NCBI GenBank assembly: GCA_009788055.1
Contig: WQSG01000005.1
Span: 1-64,000, forward strand
From: Defluviitaleaceae bacterium
Lineage (GTDB): Bacteria > Bacillota > Clostridia > Lachnospirales > WQUN01
Reading direction: 5' to 3'
DNA length: 64,000 nucleotides
Shown one piece after another: positions 5,842 to 63,419 of this stretch. The translations under genes and the position numbers were made by a program. Below the pieces are notes generated by a model. It did no database searches. It worked only from the letters and a program-made list of their open reading frames with translations, and was not told where the DNA came from. How positions within the stretch are numbered: the first letter of the stretch is position 1; each line of letters opens with the position of its first letter.

Positions 5842-5865
5842 AAATTCGCTCCTGTGTCAAGTTTT

Positions 5866-6052
5866 AAGTTCTCGGGGCAATGAAGTGAGCGGTTTACCGC
5901 GAACGGCACCGTCCCCGAACCCCACGAACTTTTTTGAAAAAAAGTTCGACAAAAAACTTTAACCGAAACCGCGCAAAGCGCGGTTTCAAGATAGGGGTCA
6001 AGGGGATGAAATCCCCTTGCGGGGGTATTGGGGGCAGAGCCCCCAAGGTCTT
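5866..6052. repeat. Dispersed modular repeat, copy 3
   Basis: Starts AAGTTCTCGGGG and ends CCAAGGTCTT. Inside are the GTGAGCGG...CGAACGGCAC module, the GAACTTTTTT hairpin, an ACCGCGC/GCGCGGT stem, an AAGGGGAT/ATCCCCTT stem and a GGGGGC-AGA-GCCCCC stem. It separates the PilN-like gene from the gene upstream of it, and its last base is the first base of that gene's stop codon. Confidence 0.8.
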
Positions 6053-10658: not shown

Positions 10659-10775
10659 AAACCGCGCAAATGCGCGGTTCTAGTTTTGCGGTGCAGTTTA
10701 TCGCTAGTCCATGTCAAAGTTTGGGTCAAGCCTTTTTAAAGGCTTGCGGGGTTCGGGGCAGAGCCCCGAGGTTTT
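10657..10775. repeat. Dispersed modular repeat, copy 4
   Basis: Sits between the convergent selO and smc genes. It begins with an AACCGCGC/GCGCGGTT hairpin, then CAAGCCTTTTTAAAGGCTTG, then GGGGC-AGA-GCCCC and CGAGGTTTT. The first hairpin probably terminates selO, and the last bases overlap the smc stop codon. Confidence 0.8.
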
Positions 10776-13700
10776 AATACTTCGTATCCGACTCCTCCAC
10801 AATTTTAACACTTACCATTTTAGAAACGCCTTGTTCTTCCATGGTAACGCCGTAAAGGGTATCGGCGGCTTCCATTGTGCCCTTGCGGTGGGTGATGATA
10901 ATGAACTGAGTGCCCTTCGCGTACTGTTTCAGAAAGTTTGCGAAACGGGCAACGTTTGCATCATCCAGCGCGGATTCGATTTCGTCCAAGACGCAGAAGG
11001 GCGATGGCTTCATCCGCAGGATGGAAAACAGAAGCGTGATTGCAGTAAGTGCGCGTTCGCCGCCGGAAAGAAGCATCAGGTTTTGCAAAGATTTTCCGGG
11101 GGGCTGGGCGATAATTTCTATGCCGGATTCCAGCACGTTTTCCGTATCCAAAAGGCGAAGGCTGGCTTTTCCGCCCTCAAACATCTCTTTAAAAACTTCG
11201 CTGAAATGCTCGGCTATTACCGCAAATTTTTCCGCAAAACGATTTTCCATTTCGGCGGTAAGGTTTGCGATAAGTTCGTTAAGGGCGGCTTCCGCTTCCA
11301 AAATATCGTCGCGCTGGGTTGTGAGAAAACCGTGGCGCGTTTTTATTTGCTTGAACGCCTCAATTGCGCCAAGGTTTACATCTGTCATGCCCGCAAGTTC
11401 GGACTTTAACTGCGAACCCGTTTTGCGAAGCGTTGCCTCGGTAAGGTCTTCGCGTTTGAATTGCATTGCGGTTTGATATGTCAACCCGTACTCTTCCCAT
11501 ACCTCGTTGTGCAAGCGGTGGCTGGACGCGTCAAGGCTTTCTTTGCGCGCTTCAAGGCGGGCGATTTCGCGCTCCAACAGGTTTGTTGCATCGGTTTGAC
11601 TGCGCTCGTCTGCTTCGGCTTTTGCAATGGCGGCATCAAGCGCGTTTTTTTCCGCCTCGCTTGCGGTTAGTTCTTTGCGCGATTCTTCCAGCCGCGATTG
11701 GATTTTTTCAAGCTGTGCCGCAATTTCTTGGCGGTTTTCTTGGGATTGTTTGATTGCCGTTTCGTTTGCGGAAATTTCTGCAAGAAGCATTTTCTTTTCC
11801 TGTTCCAGCGTTGAAATTTCCTTTTGCAAGCGCGAAATGTTGGACTTTGAGTGGGTGATTACCTCCGTTTTGCGGGTGATTTCTACGCGCAGTTCCGTTA
11901 CCGCGTCGGCTTCTTCCGTGATGGTTTTGCGGTTCTGCTCGGTTTCGCGCTGATAATTTTCCAGCGCGGCGCGGGCGTTTTCTACCAGTTCTTCTTTTTG
12001 CAGAAGCTCCGTTTTTGCAACACGAACCGCGCCGTTTGCTTCAACTATCCGTGCCATTATTTTTTCATTTTCTTCATTATAATTTTGCGAATTTTCTTGC
12101 AAAGTTTTTAGCGTCTCGTTTGCGTTTTGTTGTTTTGCGCGAAGATTTTTTTCTTCAAGTTGCAGTGTGCTTACGGTTTCATTTGTCTGCGCCAAAACGT
12201 CACGGGTGGTTGCACGTTTTTCGTTTAATTTTGCCTCACGCCGGTTGAGAATTTCCATGTCGCGTTGCAGTTCCGTTACTTCAATTTTCAGTTGCTCCAA
12301 CTGCCTAGCACGGCCTATTATTCCCGCGCTTTGCCGCGCCACGCTTCCGCCCGTTATCGCGCCGCCCGGGCTTAAACGCTCGCCGCCCTTGGTAACAATT
12401 TTGTATGAATATCTGAATTTTTTATGAAGCGCAAGGGCGTTTTCCAGCGTGTCCATTATCACGATATCGCCTAATAGTTGCGAAATTACGGGGGCGTAAA
12501 CGTCCTCGCAGTCCACCAGTTCGGCGGCAATGCCGATGTAGCCCTGCTCATTTTGCAAGCGGTATGTGTCGATGTTTCTGCCCTTCACAGCGGTAAGCGG
12601 CAGAAATGTTGCGCGGCCTTCCTTTGCGCGTTTCAGAAATTCGATTGCGTGTTTGGCATCACCCTCGGTTTTTGTGATGATGTTTTGTGCCGCGCCGCCC
12701 AGCGCGATTTCAATTGCCGTTTCAAACTCGTCCTCCACGCCGATTAACTCACCAACCGCGCCGCAAATGCCCGCAAATGCCGCGTCTGTTTTTTGCCGCG
12801 AAAGCACCGCTTTTACACTGCGGTAATATCCTTCATGCCCCGCTTCAAGGTCGGAGAGGGCGCGGAAACGTCCGCGTTTTGCCGTTAAATCTTCCGACGT
12901 AATGCGCAGTTCGCGTTGCAATGTGTCCGCTTCTGCGCGTAGCTGATTGTATGCTTTTGCGTAGTCCTCCTGATTTTTCAGCGCGGCGGAAAGCTCTTTT
13001 CCGCACGAATTTAACGCCCCTTCGTTTTGCGAAAACGCGGCAGTTGCTTCTTCAAGTCTGTCCTCGTGGCGTTCGATTTCTGTGTCCAGCCGCTCCTTGT
13101 CGTCCTCCAAGCGGCGGTACATATTTTCCGCTTCAAGCACGGCGGCGCGGCTTTCTGTGGCGGCTGTCATTGCGTCCATCACGTTTTGATTTAGGGAATC
13201 CGTTTCCGCCGCGCCCTCGCGCATGGCGTTTTCGTGGCGGGCGGAAATTTCCAATTGCTCTAACAATGCGTGGTTTAGCTCCGATACTTCTGATTGCATT
13301 GCGGAAACATTTTCTTCTTCCGCAGAAATTTCTTCATGCTTGCCCGCAATGCTACTGTCGCGTTTTTCCGCTTCCGTTTTTAGCCTCGCACTGTCCGTTT
13401 CAAGCTGAATACAACGACTTTCCGCCAACTTGATATCCGTTTGCTTTTGCTCGATTATTTTTGTGGTGTCAAGTAAATCCTCCGTGGCGCGGCGATAATT
13501 CGCGTCCGCCGCCGCCGCACGGTTCTTCAATTCTTCCCCCGCAGACCGCGCTTCCGTTAAAAGCCGCTTGCCGTCGCCCGACTGCGACATGATACTTTCA
13601 AGCGATTTTTCTGTATGCTCCATGTCATCATTTATTTTTCGGATATCCGCCAAAAAAATATTTAGGTGAACGCTCTTATATTCATCGCGCAATTCCAGAT

Positions 13701-15679: not shown

Positions 15680-16429
15680 TCACGGGCATCGCGCCAGAAT
15701 ATACACAAGTTCGTTGCCGATATGTGCGGTTGCGGTTTGGGTGAAATTGTGCAACAACCCGCTTTCACAAGCGTTTGCGAAAAGCGCGGCATAGTTTTTT
15801 TCCATGCCCTTGTCGCGCCCGCCAAGGCTTTTTGTTGGGAATGAAACGACCAAAAACCGCGTGTTTAGTGCATTCGCAAGGGAGAAGCCCCTGTTTTTGC
15901 ACTGCGCTTCCAAAACGGGTACGAGCTTTAGCATGAATGCGACATCTACCGCTTCGGAGGGGGTTTCCACGGCAAGGTCTGCGCAGGCGGCGGCGGGCGG
16001 AAGCCCGATTTTCCCGAAGAAAATGTTTAGCAAATCCCGTGTGCGCAGGTCGATATCGTATGCGTGGTACGCCGCTAAATTGCGCGTTAATTCCCGTGGC
16101 ATTAGCGGGATGGAAAACGGGTTAAACCCGCAGCCAAGGTCTAAAATTTGCGTGACGCTTTCGCCCGCGTGTTTTAGCACGAACGCAAAAAAATCCTGCA
16201 AGTGGGGCAACCGCTCTTTTGTGGATGCGTGTAATTGCAAGATTTTTTCCGCAGGTTCTTCCAACAAACCTGCCGCTTTTTTATGCGCGTTGCCCTGCAA
16301 ATACGCGCCGTATAGCTGGTGCATTCGTGTTTTGGCGGCCTTTGTCGGGTCTTTTTTTTCGCTTTCTTCCGCGATAATCCGCGCTACCAGCGGCGGGTAA
16401 ATCATGTTGTATTTCGCGCTTAGTGTCAT
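15680..16429 (-). CDS. 16S rRNA (guanine1405-N7)-methyltransferase, ArmA/Rmt-like
   Basis: 249 residues, the same length as RmtB. The family's blocks occur in order: KTRMHQLYGAYL near 33, LHASTKERLP near 68, the SAM-binding LDLGCGFNPFSIPL near 96, FMLKLVPVLEAQ near 166, VVSFPTKSLGGRDKGMEKNY near 195, and IGNELVYIL at the end. Known members methylate N7 of G1405 in the decoding site of 16S rRNA and block 4,6-disubstituted deoxystreptamine aminoglycosides. The start overlaps the tgt stop by ATGA, so the two are co-translated. No mobile element borders it. Resistance in this host is inferred, not shown. Confidence 0.88.
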   Translation of the reverse strand: MTLSAKYNMIYPPLVARIIAEESEKKDPTKAAKTRMHQLYGAYLQGNAHKKAAGLLEEPAEKILQLHASTKERLPHLQDFFAFVLKHAGESVTQILDLGCGFNPFSIPLMPRELTRNLAAYHAYDIDLRTRDLLNIFFGKIGLPPAAACADLAVETPSEAVDVAFMLKLVPVLEAQCKNRGFSLANALNTRFLVVSFPTKSLGGRDKGMEKNYAALFANACESGLLHNFTQTATAHIGNELVYILARCP

Positions 16430-17667
16430 CGTAATTGCTCCATAAGCATATTAAAAAAACGCAAATTGTGAATTGTTGCAAGGCGGTGCGCAAGGCTGTC
16501 GCCAATGCTTGCCAAGTGCCGCAAGTATGCTCGAGAATAATTTTGGCAGGTGTGACAGTCGCAAATGCGCGAAATTGGGCGTGGGTCGCGGCGGTATTCA
16601 TCGTCTAAAATATAGTGATATTTGTAAAAACTTTTGCCCGTACCAAGTTCAATATCGCTCGCCGTTTCAAATTCTTCATTAAAAACATAAAGCCTGTTGT
16701 GCCTCGCTTCCCGCGTGGGAATCACGCAGTCGAACAGGTTATACCCCATCTTAGCACAGGCAACAATATTCTCCGGCCTGCCAATTCCCATTGCGTATTT
16801 CACGCCGCCCTGCGGCATAAGTTCTGCCGTGTACGCCAAGATTTCTTCCGTAAGACGCCCCTCTGCGTCCAGCGGCCAGCCGCCAAAACCAAAGCCCTCA
16901 TATCCCATTTCAATTAGCGCATCCGCACATTCCTTGCGCAAATTTTTTTCGTTACCGCCTTGGATTATTCCGAAGAGCAAGTTCTCGGGGACAGTGCCGT
17001 TCGCTTCGCTCACTTCATTATCCCCGAACCCCTGCAAGCCTTTGAAAAGGCTTGACCCAAACTTTTTATTAAAATCGCGCGAATGCGCGATTTTTGTTAA
17101 AGTTTTTGTCGAACTTTTTTCAAAAAGTTCGCAGGGGTGTGGGGACGGAGTCCCCACGGTCTTTTTCACAGAAGCCGTAAATATAGCCATACACTTTTTG
17201 CCCCAGCGGATTGTAGTGTCAACTGCCTTTGACTGAATATCGTAGGAATCAGACGGGTGGGTGCAGTAGTCGAGAGCCATTAGGATATCGGAGCCGTATG
17301 CCAGTTGGGATTGAATGCACTTTTCGGGCGAGAGAACGGTCTTTTTTCCGTCGCGGCGAAAGATAATTTCATTTGGGCGGATTTCTCCCATGGACGAATT
17401 TTCGCGCAACAAAGAAAACACCTGAAACCCGCCCGAATCCGTGACGATTGGGCGTTTCCAACCCGTGAATGCGTTTAGGCCGCCCATTGCCTTAATCGTG
17501 GACGCGCCCGGTTTTGTCATCAAATGGTAGGCGTTCATTACAATGCCCTGCACGCCGCAGTTTTCCAAGTCCATGCTGTCAACGGTGCGCACAACGCCGC
17601 GTGTTCCGTCGGGGAAAAACGCGGGTAGCCGCACCATTCCGTGGGGTAAAAAAATTTCCTTAGTCAC
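16426..17667 (-). CDS. tgt: Queuine tRNA-ribosyltransferase family protein carrying an in-frame repeat insertion
   Basis: 413 residues. Family marks are DSGGFQVFSLL (near 77), LLFGIIQGG (near 232), FDCVIPTREARHNRLYV with the nucleophilic Asp (near 317), and the zinc site CDCHTCQ...H (near 373). Tgt exchanges guanine 34 of certain tRNAs for a queuine precursor. The GG-L-V-G-E motif is changed to GGWPLDAEG, so this is a divergent branch. Between AIFTASV and LLFGIIQGG lie 62 residues encoded by a dispersed repeat; without them the protein would be 351 residues. It overlaps the metallo-hydrolase by 8 bp and the Rmt-like gene by 4 bp. Activity is uncertain. Confidence 0.85.
   Translation of the reverse strand: MTKEIFLPHGMVRLPAFFPDGTRGVVRTVDSMDLENCGVQGIVMNAYHLMTKPGASTIKAMGGLNAFTGWKRPIVTDSGGFQVFSLLRENSSMGEIRPNEIIFRRDGKKTVLSPEKCIQSQLAYGSDILMALDYCTHPSDSYDIQSKAVDTTIRWGKKCMAIFTASVKKTVGTPSPHPCELFEKSSTKTLTKIAHSRDFNKKFGSSLFKGLQGFGDNEVSEANGTVPENLLFGIIQGGNEKNLRKECADALIEMGYEGFGFGGWPLDAEGRLTEEILAYTAELMPQGGVKYAMGIGRPENIVACAKMGYNLFDCVIPTREARHNRLYVFNEEFETASDIELGTGKSFYKYHYILDDEYRRDPRPISRICDCHTCQNYSRAYLRHLASIGDSLAHRLATIHNLRFFNMLMEQLR
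16979..17164. repeat. Dispersed modular repeat, copy 5, inserted in frame inside tgt
   Basis: Read on the minus strand it starts AAGACCGTGGGG (17164 downward) and ends CCCCGAGAACTT (16979). Modules: GGGGAC-TCC-GTCCCC, the GAACTTTTT hairpin, AAATCGCGC/GCGCGATTT, AAGCCTTTTCAAAGGCTT, and the GTGAGCG...CGAACGGCAC module. The length is 186 bp, exactly 62 codons, with no stop in the tgt frame. Intergenic copies of the same modules show that it is an insertion and not part of the Tgt fold. Confidence 0.9.
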
Positions 17668-25297: not shown

Positions 25298-26197
25298 ATG
25301 GACGTGATTAAAAATTACATTGACAATGTTTTCGCGGCGTATCCGCAAACCGACGAGGTGCTGGCACTGAAAAAAAATATGCTTGCAGACATGGAAGAAA
25401 AATACACCGCCCTGCGTCAGAACGGCAAAACCGAACACGAAGCCGCCTACAGCGTAATTGCCGACTTCGGAAATATGGAAGAAATAACCGCAGAACTTGG
25501 GCTGGAGGGCAAAAGCACCGCCGAAACACTTTTCCTACCCATGGACGATGCCCGCAACTATCTTAAAAAATCCAAGCAAAGCGGCATAATAACAGGGCTT
25601 GGCGTTTGGTTAATCATCTTTGGGGTTTCTACCACGATAGTGCTTGACGAAAACGTAATCCCCATGTTTGTGGCAATCGCAATCGCCGTTACAATGTTTA
25701 TCGTGAACAGTGCCCGCATGAGCAAATACGAACCCTATGACGAAACCACCCTGCGCTTCGACAAAGACACTGCCGAACGTCTTTCGGAAAAACACGCCGC
25801 CTTCATGCCCCGATACACCGCCATGATTGCCGTCGGCGTTGCCCTTATCATCCTAGCCGTCGGCGCAGTTGCCTCCGTTGACCTTGCAATACCCGTCTTC
25901 CTAAACATCATCGGATTCTCCGTTTTCCTCTTCATCGTCGCCGCCACTTACAGCTCCGCGTTTGACGCCCTCCTTGGCAAGGGCGACTACACCAACAAAG
26001 TCGCAAACAAAAAAGCCGACGGCATTATTGGAACAGTTGCCGCCATCTACTGGCCTTTAGTGTCTGCCCTTGGCGTAGGGCTACTGTTTCTAGGCGTTGA
26101 CAACTTCTGGATAGTCTGGCCCGTTGCAGGTATCATCTTCGGCGGAATTTGCGGCGGCATTGCCGTCTGGGCCGAGGCAAAGAAAAAGGGTGAATAA
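25298..26197 (+). CDS. HAAS-domain (permease prefix) membrane protein
   Basis: 299 residues from the ATG 2 bp past the padR stop. Residues 1-75 form the cytoplasmic HAAS/permease-prefix domain (MEEKYTALRQNGKTEHEAA, VIADFGNMEEITAELG). Six hydrophobic segments follow, at about 100-118, 122-140, 180-200, 205-230, 250-268 and 272-290. Proteins of this kind are co-expressed with PadR regulators. They are thought to sense or modulate the membrane; the mechanism is unknown. Confidence 0.8.
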   Translation: MDVIKNYIDNVFAAYPQTDEVLALKKNMLADMEEKYTALRQNGKTEHEAAYSVIADFGNMEEITAELGLEGKSTAETLFLPMDDARNYLKKSKQSGIITGLGVWLIIFGVSTTIVLDENVIPMFVAIAIAVTMFIVNSARMSKYEPYDETTLRFDKDTAERLSEKHAAFMPRYTAMIAVGVALIILAVGAVASVDLAIPVFLNIIGFSVFLFIVAATYSSAFDALLGKGDYTNKVANKKADGIIGTVAAIYWPLVSALGVGLLFLGVDNFWIVWPVAGIIFGGICGGIAVWAEAKKKGE

Positions 26198-26205
26198 TAA
26201 ATGTG

Positions 26206-26250
26206 AAGACCTCGGGGCAATGAAGTGAGCGGTTTACCGCGAACGGCACC
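26206..26250. repeat. Dispersed modular repeat, copy 6 (partial)
   Basis: AAGACCTCGGGGC followed by the AATGAAGTGAGCGG...CGAACGGCACC module, then the match stops. It starts 9 bp after the stop of the HAAS gene. Confidence 0.7.
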
Positions 26251-26263
26251 TCCCTCAATGTTT

Positions 26264-26316
26264 AAAAAAAGCCCCCTTCGCCTTATTGCAAAAATTTGCA
26301 ACAACGCGAAGGGGGC
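26264..26316 (-). terminator. Terminator of the DtxR-type regulator gene
   Basis: GCCCCCTTCGC (26271-26281) and GCGAAGGGGGC (26306-26316) are perfectly complementary, and an inner TTGCAAAAATTTGCAA can also pair. On the minus strand seven T follow the stem. Confidence 0.8.
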
Positions 26317-26428
26317 GCACCGGAAAAGTGGTATTGCTTGCATGGCTTACAAAATTCTAAATGGTCAGTGGTCGCTAAAGGGGAGTTAGCAATCACTAAC
26401 CAAGTTATATCAGGCTAACTTATTTTTG

Positions 26429-31326: not shown

Positions 31327-32442
31327 ATGAAAAATTATTTAAAAACGGCGGCGGCATTTCTTTTTGCCATCGCAATGATGTTTACGCTTGCCGCTTGCAC
31401 TAACGGAAACGGCGGCGCAACCGAACGCGGTGCAGACCCCGAAGCCGCACTTGGAGCCGCAAACGAAAACGGTGACGACACACAGGGGAACGAGAACGAA
31501 ACCCCCACCGACCCCCCCGTTGCACGCGCACCCGGCGAACCATGGACGGGCGAAATATGGGACGCGGGCATTACGGTTGCAACGGTAAACGGCATTGACA
31601 TCGGCATGAATGATGTTAGTTTCCGCGTGATGGAAGCGGAATGGACTATCCAAATGGAAATGTTTGATGATATCGACTTTGCAAATTGGGATACCACTGT
31701 CCGCGAAGAAGCGGCGCGGCTTGCGGCGGTTACATCGCTGTTTTTGCAATACGCGGCAGACAACGACATCTCCCTTGATGATGACGCTGTTCAAGAAATC
31801 CGCGACAACATTTACGAAATAAAAGAGATTCACGGCGAAGATGACTTCCTTGATATGCTTGAAGCAGACGGCATTCTCGGTTTTGAACACCTCGCCCGCG
31901 TTCTGTACGTGTTCACGCTGGTGGAAGAGGTTATGGATTTCATAATCGCTGACCCCGCAAGATTCGCGCAGTATGAAGAATATATGGAAGAACTCCTTGG
32001 CGCGAAACACATTCTAATTACCCTTGACGACTTTGACGGCGACGAAGATGCCGCAATGGAATTTGCGCAAGAAATTTGGGCGCGTGCCATCGCAGGCGAA
32101 GACTTCGGCGCACTTAAAGAAGCCTACAGCCAAGACCCCGGCAGACACGATATGCCCCAAGGTTACACATTTACCGCAGGGCAAATGGTTCCCGAATTTG
32201 AGCAAGGCACACGCGACCTTGAAATGGGCGAAATAAGCGAACCAATCCGCGCTTTCCACGGTATCCACATCATCAAGCGCGTAGAGCCAAACCCTGCCGA
32301 CCTTATGGGCGCGTCCCCGTGGGACCCAACTCCCACCGAAGAAGAGAGAATGGCTCACGCCGTTTACCGCGGCTTTGAAGCAAAAGCCGCCGCCGCAGAT
32401 ATCGTTTTCCTTCCCGAGCTGGCTAATGTGCCTGTGCATTAG
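31327..32442 (+). CDS. Parvulin-type peptidyl-prolyl isomerase lipoprotein (PrsA-like)
   Basis: 371 residues. The signal peptide ends in lipobox LAAC (Cys near 24), then an acidic/Asn-rich linker. A SurA-like N-terminal helical region (about 65-215) precedes the parvulin domain (about 220-320), which has GAKHILITLDDFDGD, the YSQDPGRHDMPQG segment and FHGIHIIKRVEP. PrsA-like proteins help secreted proteins fold outside the membrane. This one may serve the large secreted proteins encoded on either side. Confidence 0.9.
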   Translation: MKNYLKTAAAFLFAIAMMFTLAACTNGNGGATERGADPEAALGAANENGDDTQGNENETPTDPPVARAPGEPWTGEIWDAGITVATVNGIDIGMNDVSFRVMEAEWTIQMEMFDDIDFANWDTTVREEAARLAAVTSLFLQYAADNDISLDDDAVQEIRDNIYEIKEIHGEDDFLDMLEADGILGFEHLARVLYVFTLVEEVMDFIIADPARFAQYEEYMEELLGAKHILITLDDFDGDEDAAMEFAQEIWARAIAGEDFGALKEAYSQDPGRHDMPQGYTFTAGQMVPEFEQGTRDLEMGEISEPIRAFHGIHIIKRVEPNPADLMGASPWDPTPTEEERMAHAVYRGFEAKAAAADIVFLPELANVPVH

Positions 32443-32450
32443 GGAAGGAT

Positions 32451-32534
32451 CGTGGGGCTCTGCCCCACACCCCGCAAGCCTTTAAAAAGGCTTGACCCAA
32501 ACTTTGACGAAAACCCGCGCAAATGCGCGGGTTT
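32451..32534. repeat. Dispersed modular repeat, copy 7
   Basis: GTGGGGC-TCT-GCCCCAC, then AAGCCTTTTTAAAGGCTT, then AACCCGCGC-AAAT-GCGCGGGTT. It lies between the isomerase and the BspA-like gene; the last hairpin with its T-run may terminate the former. Confidence 0.8.
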
Positions 32535-32552
32535 TGTGGTGGGAGATGGATT

Positions 32553-35402
32553 ATGAAACGTGTGATTTGTTTTGTGGTTGCGTTTATTATGGTTGCGGCG
32601 GTTGCGCCTAGTGATTTGCGGGTGGGCGCGGGCGGTGCAGAGCCTAGGTTGTCGGGCTTTGTGGTGCATCATGGTGGGCAGAGTGTTGCCGTTACAGGTG
32701 CGGGGCAAACGGGGCAGTTGAGTGCCGTTGAGGGCGAGCCGTTCACATTTGAGGTACAAATTGAAAATGCGGACATAGTGCAAAGCGTTTATGTCGTAAG
32801 CGAGCATTACCGCGATTTGCGGCGGCTGGAAGCATTTTATGACGGTGCGGGGCAGTGGATTGCGAAAGGGTTTTTCTGCGATACAGACAGCTTCTTGTAC
32901 GGGGTTTTGTCGGTGGAGTTTACGGAGGATATTTCCAGCTTGTTTGACGGAATAGTGCTTGATTTCAGCGAAGAAATAGATTTTAACGAGGTACGCAGTT
33001 TTCTTGAACCTGAATGGCGCAACGCCTTCATAACGGAACACGAAAACATTACGACAATCGTGCTGGATAACGAGGAGCAAACGGAACTTGAAATTGAGGT
33101 AACAAACAGCGAGATACACGCCGACATAGATGACCTTATTGCAATGGGTTTCGCGCCGTTGGAGGATATAAACGGCGATGTAATTTTTGTGCGCATGACG
33201 GGCGAATTAGCAAACGAGGGCGATATTGTAGAATTTGAAATTGCCGCGCCAATGGCGGGGTTATTTTATTTGTGTGACGAGGATGTGCAACCGCAATTTG
33301 TTGTGGCAATCGCGCTTACCACCGTAAAAATAGCGGCGAAAACCGCGCCTAAGTGGTTTCCGAAAGTGGCGGCACCCGCGACATTTGCAAGCAACACTGC
33401 CACGGGCATATCGCTGGGCATGACCGTTTCGGGAAGCGCGAACCGCCACCGCGACGGCGTTGACCCACGGCTTAATACAATACAAACCGTTGCGGGTGTG
33501 GCACTTACCGTTGGCGGCGGGGAAAATGTTACATCAATAATCGCTACCGCTTTGGCGGGGGAATTTGTAAAACGGTTGCATTATATAAACCAAGAATCGA
33601 ATACGGATATCTTCAGGCATTTGCAAAGCATTGGCTTTGACGGGCGCAGTTTTGCGGGCGGCTCGTGGTTGCAGGGTCATGCGGGGGTTATGGTTTCCGT
33701 TGTTGCTCCTTCGGGTGAATTTACTTACAGAATATCGAGCAATCAAGCCACGGTAACGGGCTTTACGGGGCGGGCTACTACGCTGGTTATCCCGCAAATT
33801 CTAGGCGGTTTTCCCGTTACTTCAATAGATACAAATGCGTTTTATCGCAGAAATGACTTGGTTACGGTTGTTATTCCCGACACGGTTTTGCGTATCAGCA
33901 GTGGTGCGTTTAGACACAACACAAACTTGACCTCGGTTACGTTGCCGATGAATTTGCAGTATTTGGGTTGGGCGTCCTTTGGCGATACGGGGCTTACAAG
34001 CATTTTTATCCCGCGCAGGTTAAACTATGCATCAAGCTGGGTTACGCCCGGGGCGTTTGCTAATACCCCTCGTCTGCGATACGTCACGTTTGAAGAAGGT
34101 ATAACGCGCATAATCCCAAGTCTTTTTCAGGACGCAACGGGGATAAGGGAAATAATTATCCCCGACACCGTAACAGAGATTGGAAACAATGCTTTTTCAA
34201 ACGCAACGGGGCTTGTAAGCGTGGTTATTCCAAACAGTGTAACCACGTTTGGCACAAATATTTTCAGCGGCGCAACAAGCCTTGAGCGAGTGGTTTTGCC
34301 CGACAACTTGCAAACCATTCCGTGGGGTATGTTTCAAAATTGTACATCTTTGCAGGAAATTACGCTTCCGCAAACTTTGCGCGTGATAGAGGGCGCGGCA
34401 TTCCGAAACGCCCATTCGCTGGAAGAAATTATTTTCCCAAACGGGCTTCAAACAATTGGTGCGGAAGCGTTTTACAATGCGCATTCGTTGCGCGAAGTTG
34501 TAATTCCCGCCTCCGTAACGGAGGTAGACGTGGGCGCGTTTCAAAATGCGACCTCGCTTGAGTCGGCGCGGGTGTATGCAACGGGCTGGGTTGGAATGCG
34601 GGCGTTTTATAACAACACCGCAATGCACACGCTTTATTTTGCGGATACGGTAAATCACATTGGCTCGGGCGTTGCGCGGGGAAATATAAACCTAGAAAAC
34701 CTTAGCTTGGGGCAAAATATTGCATGGATTTCAAGTGATGCCTTTGCGCAAAATCACGCGCTGGTTGATGTTACAATTCCGCGCTTTACAACGCATATAC
34801 AGTGGGAAGCCTTTGCGGGAAGTTTCAGGCTTCGTAACGTGTTTATTCCGCCGCGAGTGGAACATATTTCAGCGGACGCTTTTTCTTTTCCGGCTTGGAC
34901 AACAATTCACGGCTTGCCCGGCTCAGCGGCAGAAACTTTTGCCCGTGCGCGGGATATGGAGTTTGTTCCTGTAATCGCGCCAATCACGTCCATTGCGTTC
35001 CGCAACGAGGAAGTTTTTGTTCCGCAAAACAGAAGATTTCATATTCCCCTTGATATTCAGCCCGTCTTTGATACGGACACCCTCACTTTTTCGTCCTCCG
35101 ATACAAGCGTGGTGACGGTAAACCACCGCACGGGCGAAATTGGCACGGGCGGGCGGATTGGCACGGCGGTTATCACCGTAACAAACGGCTATCTTTCGGC
35201 AAGTGTTACCGTAAATGTTGTAACCGAAGCAATTTTGCGCAACCACTTGGCAGACCTTATCGAAGCCGCAAAAGCACTACGCGCCGCAACCGCAATATCC
35301 CCCGACGGCAGGGGCATTCCCCCTGATAACTATTGGGCAACACAAGCCGCCCACAACGATTTTTCACAGGCGATACTTGCGGCAATAGCCGCGTTGGAAT
35401 AA
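32553..35402 (+). CDS. Secreted BspA-like leucine-rich repeat protein with BIG2-type domain
   Basis: 949 residues from the ATG behind GGGAGATGG. A signal peptide (1-27) precedes a unique N-terminal region (28-390). About a dozen LRR_5/BspA-type repeats of 23 residues follow (roughly 400-795), for example LVTVVIPDTVLRISSGAF and LVSVVIPNSVTTFGTNIF. Then come a bacterial Ig-like domain of the BIG2 type (about 800-885, LTFSSSDTSVVTVNHRTGEI) and a short helical tail. BspA-like proteins are surface adhesins that bind host or particle proteins. No LPXTG motif is seen, so the attachment mode is unknown. Confidence 0.88.
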   Translation: MKRVICFVVAFIMVAAVAPSDLRVGAGGAEPRLSGFVVHHGGQSVAVTGAGQTGQLSAVEGEPFTFEVQIENADIVQSVYVVSEHYRDLRRLEAFYDGAGQWIAKGFFCDTDSFLYGVLSVEFTEDISSLFDGIVLDFSEEIDFNEVRSFLEPEWRNAFITEHENITTIVLDNEEQTELEIEVTNSEIHADIDDLIAMGFAPLEDINGDVIFVRMTGELANEGDIVEFEIAAPMAGLFYLCDEDVQPQFVVAIALTTVKIAAKTAPKWFPKVAAPATFASNTATGISLGMTVSGSANRHRDGVDPRLNTIQTVAGVALTVGGGENVTSIIATALAGEFVKRLHYINQESNTDIFRHLQSIGFDGRSFAGGSWLQGHAGVMVSVVAPSGEFTYRISSNQATVTGFTGRATTLVIPQILGGFPVTSIDTNAFYRRNDLVTVVIPDTVLRISSGAFRHNTNLTSVTLPMNLQYLGWASFGDTGLTSIFIPRRLNYASSWVTPGAFANTPRLRYVTFEEGITRIIPSLFQDATGIREIIIPDTVTEIGNNAFSNATGLVSVVIPNSVTTFGTNIFSGATSLERVVLPDNLQTIPWGMFQNCTSLQEITLPQTLRVIEGAAFRNAHSLEEIIFPNGLQTIGAEAFYNAHSLREVVIPASVTEVDVGAFQNATSLESARVYATGWVGMRAFYNNTAMHTLYFADTVNHIGSGVARGNINLENLSLGQNIAWISSDAFAQNHALVDVTIPRFTTHIQWEAFAGSFRLRNVFIPPRVEHISADAFSFPAWTTIHGLPGSAAETFARARDMEFVPVIAPITSIAFRNEEVFVPQNRRFHIPLDIQPVFDTDTLTFSSSDTSVVTVNHRTGEIGTGGRIGTAVITVTNGYLSASVTVNVVTEAILRNHLADLIEAAKALRAATAISPDGRGIPPDNYWATQAAHNDFSQAILAAIAALE

Positions 35403-39046: not shown

Positions 39047-39102
39047 GCCCGCGTAGCGATAGGGTAGGAAAGATTAGATTAGTGGGCGGTAGGCGAAAAA
39101 AA

Positions 39103-39196
39103 GACAAGGGGACGGTTCATCCGTCTTACACGAAAGGGCTTGATTCCCATGGATAAATCCATATATTGTGAAGGACAGATGAACCATCCCCTTGTC
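39103..39196. repeat. 94-bp inverted repeat element, full copy 1
   Basis: Arms GACAAGGGGACGGTTCATCC and its near complement GGACAGATGAACCATCCCC; the middle reads AAAGGGCTTGATTCCCATGG. A second 94-bp copy at 40252-40345 differs at about one base. Single arms are at 39652 and 40797. Confidence 0.9.
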
Positions 39197-39230
39197 CACC
39201 TTTGGATGTGATTGGCAGGTGTAATCACAA

Positions 39231-40227: not shown

Positions 40228-40251
40228 AAGGGAATAACTGTGACAGGAAAA

Positions 40252-40345
40252 GACAAGGGGACGGTTCATCCGTCTTACACGAAAGGGCTTGATTCCCATG
40301 GATAAATCCATATATTGTGAAGGACAGATGAACCGTCCCCTTGTC
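40252..40345. repeat. 94-bp inverted repeat element, full copy 2
   Basis: Virtually identical to 39103-39196, in the same orientation. Confidence 0.9.
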
Positions 40346-40388
40346 CACCAGAACGTAGTCATCCCGTGATATATGCAAGGAGGGTAAA

Positions 40389-54706: not shown

Positions 54707-55881
54707 CGGCTCGTACTGTTTTCACCGTTGCGCAGGTTAATAAGTATGTTAAAAAAACTTTGGAGGCAGACGCGCTTTTGGCGGGTCTGTTTGTTGAAGG
54801 CGAGCTTAGTAATTTTAATGCGCATTCGTCGGGGCATTTGTATTTTACGCTGAAAGACGCGGGCGCGGCGATAAGCGGCGTAATGTTCAAGGGCAGTGCC
54901 ATGGATTTGGCTTTTGTTCCCCGCAGCGGGATGAAGGTAGTTGTTTTTGGGCGGTTGTCGCTGTATGAAAAAACGGGGCAATATCAGCTATACGTGGAGT
55001 ATATGGAACCCGCAGGCGTGGGCGGTTTGCAACTTGCGTTTGCGCAGTTGAAAGAAAAACTGGAAGCAGAGGGGCTTTTTTCGCAGGAACGAAAGCGGGC
55101 ATTGCCGCCTTTTGTAAACACGGTCGCGATTATCACAAGCCCCACGGGCGCGGCTGTGCGCGATATTATTAGAATTATTCGGGAGCGTAACAGGGCGGTT
55201 AAAATTATTCTTGCGCCCGCTATCGTTCAGGGCGAAAACGCGGCGGCAGACCTTGTTCGCGCTATCCGCGAAGTAAACGAATTCGGCGGCGCAGACGTTA
55301 TTATTCTTGGTAGGGGCGGCGGCTCTGTGGAGGATTTGTGGGCGTTTAACGAGGAAATTCTTGCGCGGGCGGTTGCGGATTCTGCAATCCCGATAATTTC
55401 TGCCGTAGGCCACGAAACCGACTTCACCATTTCCGATTTCGTTGCAGACCTTCGTGCTCCAACCCCAACCGCCGCGGCGCAAACCGCCGTTTACGACCAG
55501 CACCAACTCTGCGAATACCTATCCGAAATGCAAGCGGAACTTTCGCAAGCCCTTTCGGACAAAATCCTCCAACGCCGCGTTGGACTGAAAACGCTTCTCG
55601 CATCCCTCTCCCGCGCCGCAAACACACGCCTTCTCCACGAACGCCAAACCCTTTCCCACATGGAAACTCTCCTTGAAAAAACATCACCCTTCACCATTTT
55701 CAAACGCGGCTACGCCCTAACCCAACACGAAAACACCCCCATCACAAGCGTAAAAACCCTTCACACAGGGCAAAATATAAAAATAACCTACGCAGATGGT
55801 CAGGCTTTTGCGACGATTGAAAAGATTAAGACCGTGGGGGTTTCACCCCCACCGCCCCCACAAGGGGACGAGTCCCCTTGA
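54703..55881 (+). CDS. xseA: Exodeoxyribonuclease VII large subunit
   Basis: 392 residues from the ATG overlapping the nusB stop; a longer frame from 54565 inside nusB is rejected. The OB-fold (1-95, VEGELSNFNAHSSGHLYFTL), the catalytic domain with ITSPTGAAVRDIIRI, ILGRGGGSVEDLWAFNEEI and SAVGHETDFTISDFVADLRA, then a coiled coil. With XseB it degrades single-stranded DNA. The last 18 residues (about KTVGVSPPPPPQGDESP) are encoded by a dispersed repeat that starts 54 bp before the stop, so the native tail has been replaced or extended. Confidence 0.96.
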   Translation: MTARTVFTVAQVNKYVKKTLEADALLAGLFVEGELSNFNAHSSGHLYFTLKDAGAAISGVMFKGSAMDLAFVPRSGMKVVVFGRLSLYEKTGQYQLYVEYMEPAGVGGLQLAFAQLKEKLEAEGLFSQERKRALPPFVNTVAIITSPTGAAVRDIIRIIRERNRAVKIILAPAIVQGENAAADLVRAIREVNEFGGADVIILGRGGGSVEDLWAFNEEILARAVADSAIPIISAVGHETDFTISDFVADLRAPTPTAAAQTAVYDQHQLCEYLSEMQAELSQALSDKILQRRVGLKTLLASLSRAANTRLLHERQTLSHMETLLEKTSPFTIFKRGYALTQHENTPITSVKTLHTGQNIKITYADGQAFATIEKIKTVGVSPPPPPQGDESP

Positions 55882-56008
55882 CCCCTAATTTAAAATCGCG
55901 CATTCGCGCGATTTTAGGAATGCAATTTGCTTATCGCCAGTCCATGTCAAAGTTTGGGTCAAGCCTTTTTAAAGGCTTGCGGGGTTCGGGGCAGAGCCCC
56001 GAGGTCTT
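55828..56008. repeat. Dispersed modular repeat, copy 8
   Basis: Starts AAGACCGTGGGGG inside the end of xseA and ends CCCCGAGGTCTT, giving clean inverted ends. Modules include a GGGGGT/ACCCCC stem, AAGGGGAC-GA-GTCCCCTT, AAATCGCGC/GCGCGATTT, AAGCCTTTTTAAAGGCTT and GGGGC-AGA-GCCCC. It separates xseA from xseB. Confidence 0.85.
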
Positions 56009-56025
56009 AAAAAGAGGAGAAACGT

Positions 56026-56723: not shown

Positions 56724-56901
56724 AGACCGCGGGACTTCGTCCCGCACCCTACCCGCTTTTTTGAAAAAAAGCGGGGCAAAAAACTTTAACCTGAAAACCG
56801 CATATGCGGTTTTCAAAGAAGGGGTCAAGGGGAAATGAAGTGAGCGTAGCGAACGGCACTGTCCCCTTGTGGGGGTTCGGGGGCAACGCCCCCGAGGTCT
56901 T
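56723..56901. repeat. Dispersed modular repeat, copy 9
   Basis: Starts AAGACCGCGGGAC at the stop of the PAP2 gene and ends CCCCCGAGGTCTT. Contains GCGGGAC/GTCCCGC, CCGCTTTTTTGAAAAAAAGCGG, AAACCGCATATGCGGTTT, and the AATGAAGTGAGCG...CGAACGGCACTG module flanked by complementary AGGGG/CCCCT. It reads in frame into dxs but is not part of it. Confidence 0.85.
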
Positions 56902-62116: not shown

Positions 62117-63163
62117 ATGGCACTGAAAAACGAAGCGGGATACCAGCTGTACCTTGATGTTTTGGATATTTTGGAAAAAAATAATTACAGTTTGAAAACG
62201 GAAAAAGACGGCATAAGTACGAAAATTTCTGCCGTTTTCAAAAACAATGCCGCCTGCGGAAAGGTGTTTGTTGTTTCCGCGCCGCCCCAAAAGCGCGACA
62301 CGTCGATGTACGCGATGTCTGCGCACGCCAAGCTGGTTCTGCAAAAGGACGCGGTTCGCGGCGGAAATTATGAAAACCTTACGGAAGGCGCGGCGGCAGA
62401 CAACGACGGCTGTTTGTGGTACTTTGGCCATGATGAAACCGCATGGGTATCGCTGGTTGATACGAAACTCCCCGAATGGCGCGAGAAATCTCCGCTCTAC
62501 CTTGAAACCGTAGCGGCGACGGAAAAACTGAAAAAGAAAAAGCCCGAAACGGCAGACGAATTTGCACAGCTTCAAGGCGAATTTGAAGCTCTTGCCGTAA
62601 AATTTACAAGCATTTCTTCCTACAGAAACGCGCCCGAACTCGCGGGCGAATGCCGAACATATGTAACAGGCCTAAAAGAAAAACTATACCAAAAAACCAC
62701 AAAATCCTTAGACAAATTGAAAAAAACCTCGCCCTCCGAAAACTCAGGCGAACTCGTAAAAACCATCGCCGCCTACGAAAACCTCCTTGACACCTTCACC
62801 GCAATAAGAGACTTCGACGACGTAATAGACAAGATTTCCTTCTGCAACAGCGAAATCGCAAAGCTTTCCGCCTACCACGAGGCAGCCGCATACAAGGAAG
62901 CCGCCACAGAACTCTCCGACCTTGAAGAACGCCCCGAGACAGAAAAATTCTTCGACCAACTCCACCGCGCCCGCAAGTACAACAAAATCTCAAAAAAATT
63001 CAAATCCATAATCCCCTACGACAACTCCAAAGAACTCTCAAAAAGGTGCAAAAAACAACACGTCCACTTCCGCCGCAAAGTCCTAAAAAAATCCGCCCCC
63101 TTCATATTAATTCTCTTTGCGCTTGCCGTTATCGCGGTGGTTGTTTTAATTTTAACAATGTGA
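62117..63163 (+). CDS. Hypothetical tail-anchored membrane protein
   Basis: 348 residues from the ATG behind GGGGG. A mixed alpha/beta N-terminal domain (1-140, with RDTSMYAMSAHAKLVLQKDA and WYFGHDETAWVSLVDTKLPE) precedes a long Lys/Glu-rich helical region (140-310) and one C-terminal membrane helix (about 322-347, FILILFALAVIAVVVLIL). It is probably anchored with its bulk in the cytoplasm. It begins 2 bp after mntP and is probably its operon partner. No family is recognised. Confidence 0.65.
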   Translation: MALKNEAGYQLYLDVLDILEKNNYSLKTEKDGISTKISAVFKNNAACGKVFVVSAPPQKRDTSMYAMSAHAKLVLQKDAVRGGNYENLTEGAAADNDGCLWYFGHDETAWVSLVDTKLPEWREKSPLYLETVAATEKLKKKKPETADEFAQLQGEFEALAVKFTSISSYRNAPELAGECRTYVTGLKEKLYQKTTKSLDKLKKTSPSENSGELVKTIAAYENLLDTFTAIRDFDDVIDKISFCNSEIAKLSAYHEAAAYKEAATELSDLEERPETEKFFDQLHRARKYNKISKKFKSIIPYDNSKELSKRCKKQHVHFRRKVLKKSAPFILILFALAVIAVVVLILTM

Positions 63164-63348
63164 AGACCTCGGGGCTCCGCCCCGAACCCCGCAAGCCTTT
63201 GAAAAGGCTTGACCCAAACTTTGACGAAAACCCGCGCATTTCGCGCGGGTTTTTGAATTTCGTGGCAGTTTATCGCCAGTCAAAATTTAAAGTTTTTGTT
63301 CAAACTTTTTTCAAAAAGTTTGTGGGTGTGGGCAAAGCCCACGGTTTT
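63163..63348. repeat. Dispersed modular repeat, copy 10
   Basis: Begins AAGACCTCGGGGC at the preceding stop codon. Contains GGGGC-TCC-GCCCC, AAGCCTTTGAAAAGGCTT, AACCCGCGC/GCGCGGGTT, the CAAACTTTTTTCAAAAAGTTTG hairpin, and GTGGGC-AAA-GCCCAC before GGTTTT. It is 186 bp, the same length as the copy inside tgt. Confidence 0.85.
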
Positions 63349-63380
63349 GACTTTAAAAAATAGATTTCCGTGGAAAAAAC

Positions 63381-63419
63381 TTACACGGGCTTTACATTTT
63401 CTAAGATTTATTCTATTAT
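63381..63419 (+). promoter_or_regulatory. Promoter and possible response-regulator site of the adaptor lipoprotein
   Basis: TTTACA (63391-63396), 17-bp spacer, TATTAT (63414-63419). TTACA at 63381 and 63392 are 11 bp apart, as in OmpR/PhoP-type sites. Confidence 0.5.

Follow-up and report, generated by a model that had tools for sequence, protein, structure and literature searches.

A palindromic repeat is very probably translated as part of its host proteins and tolerated in Defluviitaleaceae, where, as we read the sequence comparisons, it behaves like the rickettsial palindromic elements (RPE) and has repeatedly invaded the same protein loops. In the window, i.e. the whole stretch of 64,000 nt analysed, a tgt-like gene is located on the minus strand at positions 16426–17667. 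It starts with GTG, encodes 413 amino acids and carries the element in frame. The element itself occupies positions 16979–17164 on the minus strand (186 nt), and its 62 codons, translated as (K)KTVGTPSPHPCELFEKSSTKTLTKIAHSRDFNKKFGSSLFKGLQGFGDNEVSEANGTVPENL, stand between ...AIFTASVKK and LLFGIIQGG. An in-frame insertion of 186 bp or 62 codons in tgt had been reported in the preliminary description of this DNA. Both coordinates and frame were correct, and the ORF is open throughout.

The ends of the tgt element, AAGTTCTCGGGG and CCCCACGGTCTT, form an imperfect inverted pair. Its strand folds with −90 kcal/mol as compared to −54.9 ± 4.9 kcal/mol for shuffled sequences (z −7.2), and the other strand has a z of −8.0. 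Two of the six reading frames are open, one of them being the frame of the gene. In the predicted fold a CCCCTGC/GCAGGGG stem closes the junction of hairpin A, a central GC hairpin and hairpin B, and terminal hairpins flank this structure. More specifically, the variant terminal module TCGGGGACAGTGCCGTTCGCTTCGCTCACTTCATTATCCCCGA (16979–17027) is followed by the outer stem arm ACCCCTGC (17028–17035), which pairs with GCAGGGGT at 17131–17138. Hairpin A, CAAGCCTTT/AAAGGCTTG (17035–17054), is an inverted repeat and codes for SLFKGLQG on the minus strand. The central GC hairpin AAAATCGCGCGAATGCGCGATTTT (17071–17094) is part of the minimum free energy structure and shows compensatory changes from C–G to U–A. 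Hairpin B, CGAACTTTTT/AAAAAGTTCG (17110–17131), is likewise an inverted repeat, shows covariation and codes for ELFEKSSTK on the minus strand. The terminal hairpin GTGGGGAC/GTCCCCAC of one half (17139–17157) is an inverted repeat that covaries among copies.

The element is dispersed over the query genome, a draft of 2.80 Mb in 87 contigs. Searching this genome with the DNA of the tgt element gave 63 matches at E ≤ 0.001, and after merging DNA and peptide matches at least 97 distinct places with related sequence were found. The tgt element shares a stretch of 65/65 identical nucleotides with another copy. Copies keep a common plan but exchange modules: the inner hairpin can be of the type GAACTTTTTGAAAAAAGTTC, AAGCCTTTGAAAAGGCTT, AAGGGGAnnnTCCCCTT or CCCGCTTTTTTCAAAAAGCGGG, and there are several terminal hairpins. 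Full elements are 150–200 nt long, and half elements of about 65 nt are found alone. Compensatory double changes were seen at 20 of 54 consensus pairs in an alignment of nine full copies, i.e. this is a short dispersed palindrome with conserved pairing, as in the functional definition of an RPE-like element.

Several copies lie in the window. Intergenic copies are located at 303–390 (a half element), at 1890–2084 and 5859–6024 (both with variant modules), at 32425–32560, where the stop of the upstream ORF falls just inside the start of the copy, and at 63136–63398. A half element at 10690–10800 adjoins the end of an SMC-like ORF, the copy at 26190–26330 has the terminal module AATGAAGTGAGCG... 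in common, and another copy (55810–56014) is placed between xseA-like and xseB-like ORFs. The copy at 56741–56900 contains the variant terminal module of the tgt element (56820–56866, inverted, 87% identity over 47 nt). Rfam models detected two tRNAs in the window and nothing else. The window also contains a 102-nt direct repeat (39099–39200 and 40248–40349, 99% identical, 1149 nt apart), which no search tied to the palindromes. Element modules occur in 21 of 146 genomes and extend to other families of the same order. In one of these families, a one-contig genome (G140, C1) has modules matching query positions 40–92 with 84–92% identity.

At least eight conserved proteins of the query genome, identified by Pfam, contain the element in frame, free of stop codons and in a common peptide frame. 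These are Tgt, MnmE, Mfd, RecG, a Ca2+-type P-ATPase, an IspH–prenyl synthase fusion, an HgdC-like activator (a BadF/BadG-type 2-hydroxyacyl-CoA dehydratase activator with an open frame of 1496 codons) and an MFS transporter. Full elements are present in Tgt, the activator, the P-ATPase and Mfd, half elements in the other four. A ninth host is probably the c subunit of a V-type ATP synthase, which has another module in frame. In all eight hosts the element is read on one strand and in one frame, and the peptide SGTxSPNPxELFEKSSTKTLT or a close variant of it is encoded; the RecG insert, for example, reads SGTLSPNPNELFEK. Thus, copies are found both between genes and in frame within unrelated conserved ORFs, which include eight genes of the query genome and RNase R of the relative G020, where the element is placed between the RNB and S1 domains. 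The preliminary description had proposed to look for the element in other genes, and besides Tgt seven conserved proteins of the query genome carry it, all in frame. None of 68 copies splits a gene out of frame when ORFs entering from both sides are considered. Ten ORF pairs that were candidates for disrupted genes turned out to be intergenic, antisense or gene ends, where the ORF terminates by itself at the edge of the element or a little way into it. Two further copies, which precede the genes of aspartate-semialdehyde dehydrogenase (C19) and an S8 protease (C66), are crossed by open frames that we regarded as intergenic read-through and left out. Some genes end inside an element and gain short C-terminal tails: RecG (C7, ...GALPPHPHELF), the activator (C60) and a gene at C34:27106. 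When aligned with PDB structures, the inserts of MnmE, RecG, the prenyl synthase and the P-ATPase fall at gaps or poorly aligned linkers, and in Mfd the match breaks off at the insert.

For each loop, the two flanks were searched independently of one another in relatives, up to 12 per gene and 18 for Tgt, with 20 relatives in total. It is important to note that the eight loops were chosen by the inserts in the query genome, so that their occupancy elsewhere should not be taken as a rate for whole genomes. Every genome used is a draft assembly and the named relatives are mostly MAGs; the closest records that bear a name are MAGs filed under Defluviitaleaceae, 'isolate Emb289P1bin119' among them. 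Defluviitaleaceae are named in a survey of MAGs from the guts of higher termites (PMC7024585), and we infer a termite-gut origin of the window. Both flanks are in one frame in all 91 orthologues (eight loops, 20 relatives), and the printed joins contain no stop codons. In 35 of the 91 the loop is at least 30 nt longer than the shortest one, and the excess is a multiple of 3 every time. Orthologue inserts have lower folding z values than coding controls taken from their flanks (mean −2.7 versus −0.6, Wilcoxon p = 0.009), and many lie between −5 and −11.

Palindromic inserts with visible element modules are found at the loops of Tgt, IspA, the HgdC-like activator, P-ATPase, MnmE and Mfd in G020, of Tgt in G022 and of MnmE in G025, and G023 has half elements in the activator and P-ATPase. 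Other palindromes occupy the MnmE loop of G019, G018 and G016. The Tgt insert of G012 and the activator insert of G016 belong to other repeat families, of which more copies are present in the respective genome. The MFS loops of relatives, and some of their IspA loops, are ordinary variable linkers only. Two further kinds of sequence were observed at these places. The RecG loop of G020 (region C58:8198-8398) has an in-frame insert of 137 residues made of diverged GCGAAACAAA/CGAAACTCGGC-type repeats, which are of a non-palindrome class, and in G030 the motif CACGTCACGA(A/G)GCCG (peptide RHEAG/TRHEA) is present at the same loops of Tgt, IspA and P-ATPase.

The preliminary description had asked for an empty site in relatives, and insert-free Tgt orthologues do exist, e.g. 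...DTFANAKSKSR-LFGIIQGG. It had also held that an unrelated native insertion of the same length in close relatives would speak against its reading. Formally, such insertions were found: G020 and G012 have in-frame Tgt inserts of 168 nt. As these are themselves palindromic dispersed repeats, the idea of insertion is strengthened by them and not refuted.

How the loops came to be filled can be judged from the tree of concatenated flanks, in which, among the genomes compared, the query genome and G019 are paired with a support of 0.998. In this nearest genome, four of the five loops compared (HgdC-like activator, P-ATPase, IspA and MFS) are without a palindromic insert. The loops of G024 are nearly empty throughout, and its sister G023 has half elements. 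Moreover, the order of modules differs between the query genome and G020 at Tgt, IspA, MnmE, Mfd and RecG. A single inherited insertion is therefore disfavoured as a general account; repeated insertion into permissive loops is the simplest one on the sequences compared, and most insertions would be of independent origin. For the HgdC-like activator an inherited insertion followed by loss is possible. At its loop in G024 (TTTDSPRS) the code reads ...TCACCGAGGTCT with the short CACCGAGGTCT, which resembles the element end CCCCGAGGTCTT and is possibly a remnant of an old insertion. Loop occupancy rises with the genome-wide load of elements (Spearman 0.62, p = 0.02; 0.52, p = 0.08 when the query genome is left out). 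Inspection of the eight sites by eye against the diverged empty sites of relatives revealed no convincing target-site duplication. The Y1/RAYT transposase (PF01797) is absent from the query genome and G020, and G023 has one. The element is therefore presumed to be mobile from the distribution of its copies.

What does the insert do to Tgt? The protein encoded in the window is a tRNA-guanine transglycosylase paralogue of a subfamily that is also present in Chloroflexota. It has the subfamily signature 'FGFGGWPLD' where ordinary Tgt has 'YAIGGLAVG'. The nearest relatives of the subfamily outside the family are mostly Chloroflexota, which suggests that the paralogue is of horizontal origin. The genome has a second Tgt (C22:25070-26068, PF01702 492 bits), which is full-length, ordinary bacterial and without an insert. 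In the window Tgt PF01702 matches in two stretches, one on each side of the insert, and TIGR00430 scores 308 bits versus a cut-off of 306.75. The view that Tgt normally lacks such a segment, taken in the preliminary description, agrees with the Tgt models of Pfam and NCBIfam and with the solved Tgt structures, all of which align on either side of the insert and skip it. At this place 65 residues of the window Tgt stand against four residues (185–188) in the Thermotoga enzyme.

In an alignment of 38 Tgt sequences D77, D313, C369, C374 and H400 are invariant and C371 is nearly invariant. The catalytic aspartates and zinc ligands of a functional Tgt (EC 2.4.2.29) are present in the window protein, whose residues we take, from established knowledge, to match D102/D280 and the zinc site of the Z. 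mobilis enzyme. With the insert left out, comparison of Tgt with relatives gives a dN/dS of about 0.07. Pairs of insert-free relatives fall in this range too, with dS near saturation. The structure predicted by AlphaFold from 38 family sequences has a mean pLDDT of 87; pLDDT is below 50 at residues 179–222 and mostly above 90 in the remainder. Foldseek matched the model to Z. mobilis Tgt with a TM of 0.84 by target. The barrel is kept in the model. Mapping the insert on it, as had been suggested, places it in a disordered loop leading from helix 142–172 to strand 230–235 (LLFGII, followed by QGG). In TIM barrels the active site and the loops from helix to strand are at opposite ends of the barrel, and for this reason the insert would be away from the active site and from the strand ends that hold the substrate.

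On the sequence and the model, Tgt is most likely still active and tolerates the insert as a disordered loop. The preliminary description had left a choice between a tolerated RPE-like element and an enzyme that is now inactive. The former has gained strongly, with eight or nine host proteins and the same loops used in relatives, and the latter is disfavoured. Inactivation would mean a fresh pseudogene that is open by luck and tolerated thanks to the second Tgt. This full-length enzyme on C22 could relax selection on the window Tgt, the identity of 65/65 nt to another copy may point to a recent insertion, and the TIGR00430 score barely exceeds its cut-off. However, the frame and the catalytic and zinc residues are preserved, dN/dS is that of insert-free pairs, the modelled fold is intact, relatives with an insert at the Tgt loop keep it likewise in frame, and seven more conserved proteins, MnmE, Mfd and RecG included, have in-frame copies. 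We consider inactivation unlikely.

Three other explanations were considered. Extra residues of similar length are present in frame at the same places in relatives, and the MFS and some IspA loops of relatives are ordinary variable linkers, as would be expected if the inserts were native functional loops that look like repeats by chance. Yet the DNA of the inserts is that of a dispersed repeat family whose pairing is conserved and which includes intergenic copies, near-identical peptides are found in unrelated proteins, and G019 and G024 have empty sites, which makes native loops very improbable. We give just as little credit to removal of the element before or during translation, by RNA excision or ribosomal bypassing, so that it would be absent from the protein. 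Its RNA structure is very stable, and the mitochondria of some yeasts do contain mobile bypassing elements. Removal would leave length and stop codons free, whereas the intragenic copies and orthologue inserts are all multiples of 3 and stop-free, and half elements with a quite different structure obey the same rule. Least credible of all is an assembly artefact in which repeat reads were misjoined into tgt and the other genes. The assembly is indeed a draft of 87 contigs with many near-identical repeats, and the Mfd gene of G023 is broken across contigs C37 and C117 near the insert site. Misjoins would not keep the frame in eight genes, though, and independently assembled genomes have elements at the same loops.

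The proposed tolerated and translated palindrome can be pictured as follows. Dispersed modular palindromes with two terminal hairpins, two interchangeable inner hairpins, a central GC-rich hairpin and a CCCC/GGGG closing stem would insert also into protein genes. Insertion would survive only if length and frame keep the gene open and the loop has room for a hydrophilic peptide without structure. Translation within the host protein would then presumably yield a peptide that typically reads SGTxSPNPxELFEKSSTKTLT. The 62 residues in Tgt would form a disordered loop on the barrel face away from the active site and activity is most likely kept. In related species the same protein loops would be invaded again and again, both by this family of palindromic repeats and by others. 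More tentatively, and with considerable reservation, these may be independently evolved protein-coding selfish palindromes of Bacillota, their frame shaped to give a harmless disordered peptide, with several unrelated families convergently invading the same loops. Were this true, repeats would keep supplying housekeeping enzymes with new loop insertions.

We found no description of such elements in Clostridia or termite MAGs in open-licence papers. As far as this literature shows, protein-coding palindromes have so far been described in Rickettsia and Wolbachia, both Rickettsiales. For other prokaryotes, a review of 2024 regards this process as no more than 'conceivable' (PMC10969869). Our results would extend protein-coding palindromes to a distant phylum and a genome of ordinary size, with MnmE, Mfd, RecG, RNase R, P-type ATPase and Tgt among the hosts. 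As close relatives in this phylum offer empty, filled and differently filled versions of one loop, it becomes testable how selfish DNA adds protein segments, which loops tolerate them and whether selection acts on the frame of the element.

Among known systems, REP/RAYT share with the element dispersed palindromic hairpins; the element is longer and modular, and its genome is without a Y1/RAYT transposase. The element is similar to MITEs and BOX, ERIC and Correia-type repeats in being short, non-autonomous and mostly intergenic, with internal modules. Terminal inverted AAGACC...GGTCTT, which would be a further likeness, are present in many copies and imperfect in the tgt copy. In-frame fusions are known for such repeats. 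It differs from them in that the intragenic copies inspected are all in frame in conserved proteins. No target duplication was evident against the diverged empty sites, and the search for PF01797 revealed no parent transposon in the query genome. By description, not by sequence, there is a likeness to WPE (Ogata 2005, as outlined in PMC4224334), which are in-frame palindromes in recombination genes, comparable to RecG and Mfd here. According to that paper, they reside in addA, addB and priA, whose products are thought to be still functional, but WPE-like inserts sometimes create stops (in addA of some strains) and the host belongs to Rickettsiales (PMC4224334), unlike in our case. The element would work most like RPE, by likeness of function and not from sequence comparison with RPE families. 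RPE, as portrayed in PMC10969869 after Ogata et al. (2000, 2002), are dispersed palindromes of about 100–200 nt, both intergenic and intragenic, that encode an in-frame conserved peptide in unrelated protein genes without evident inactivation; the same review gives 44 copies in R. conorii, nearly half of them in ORFs. Unlike RPE, the element resides in Bacillota instead of Alphaproteobacteria and in a genome of 2.8 Mb, is built of two modular halves with swappable hairpins and occurs also as half elements, and the same loops are filled in several species.
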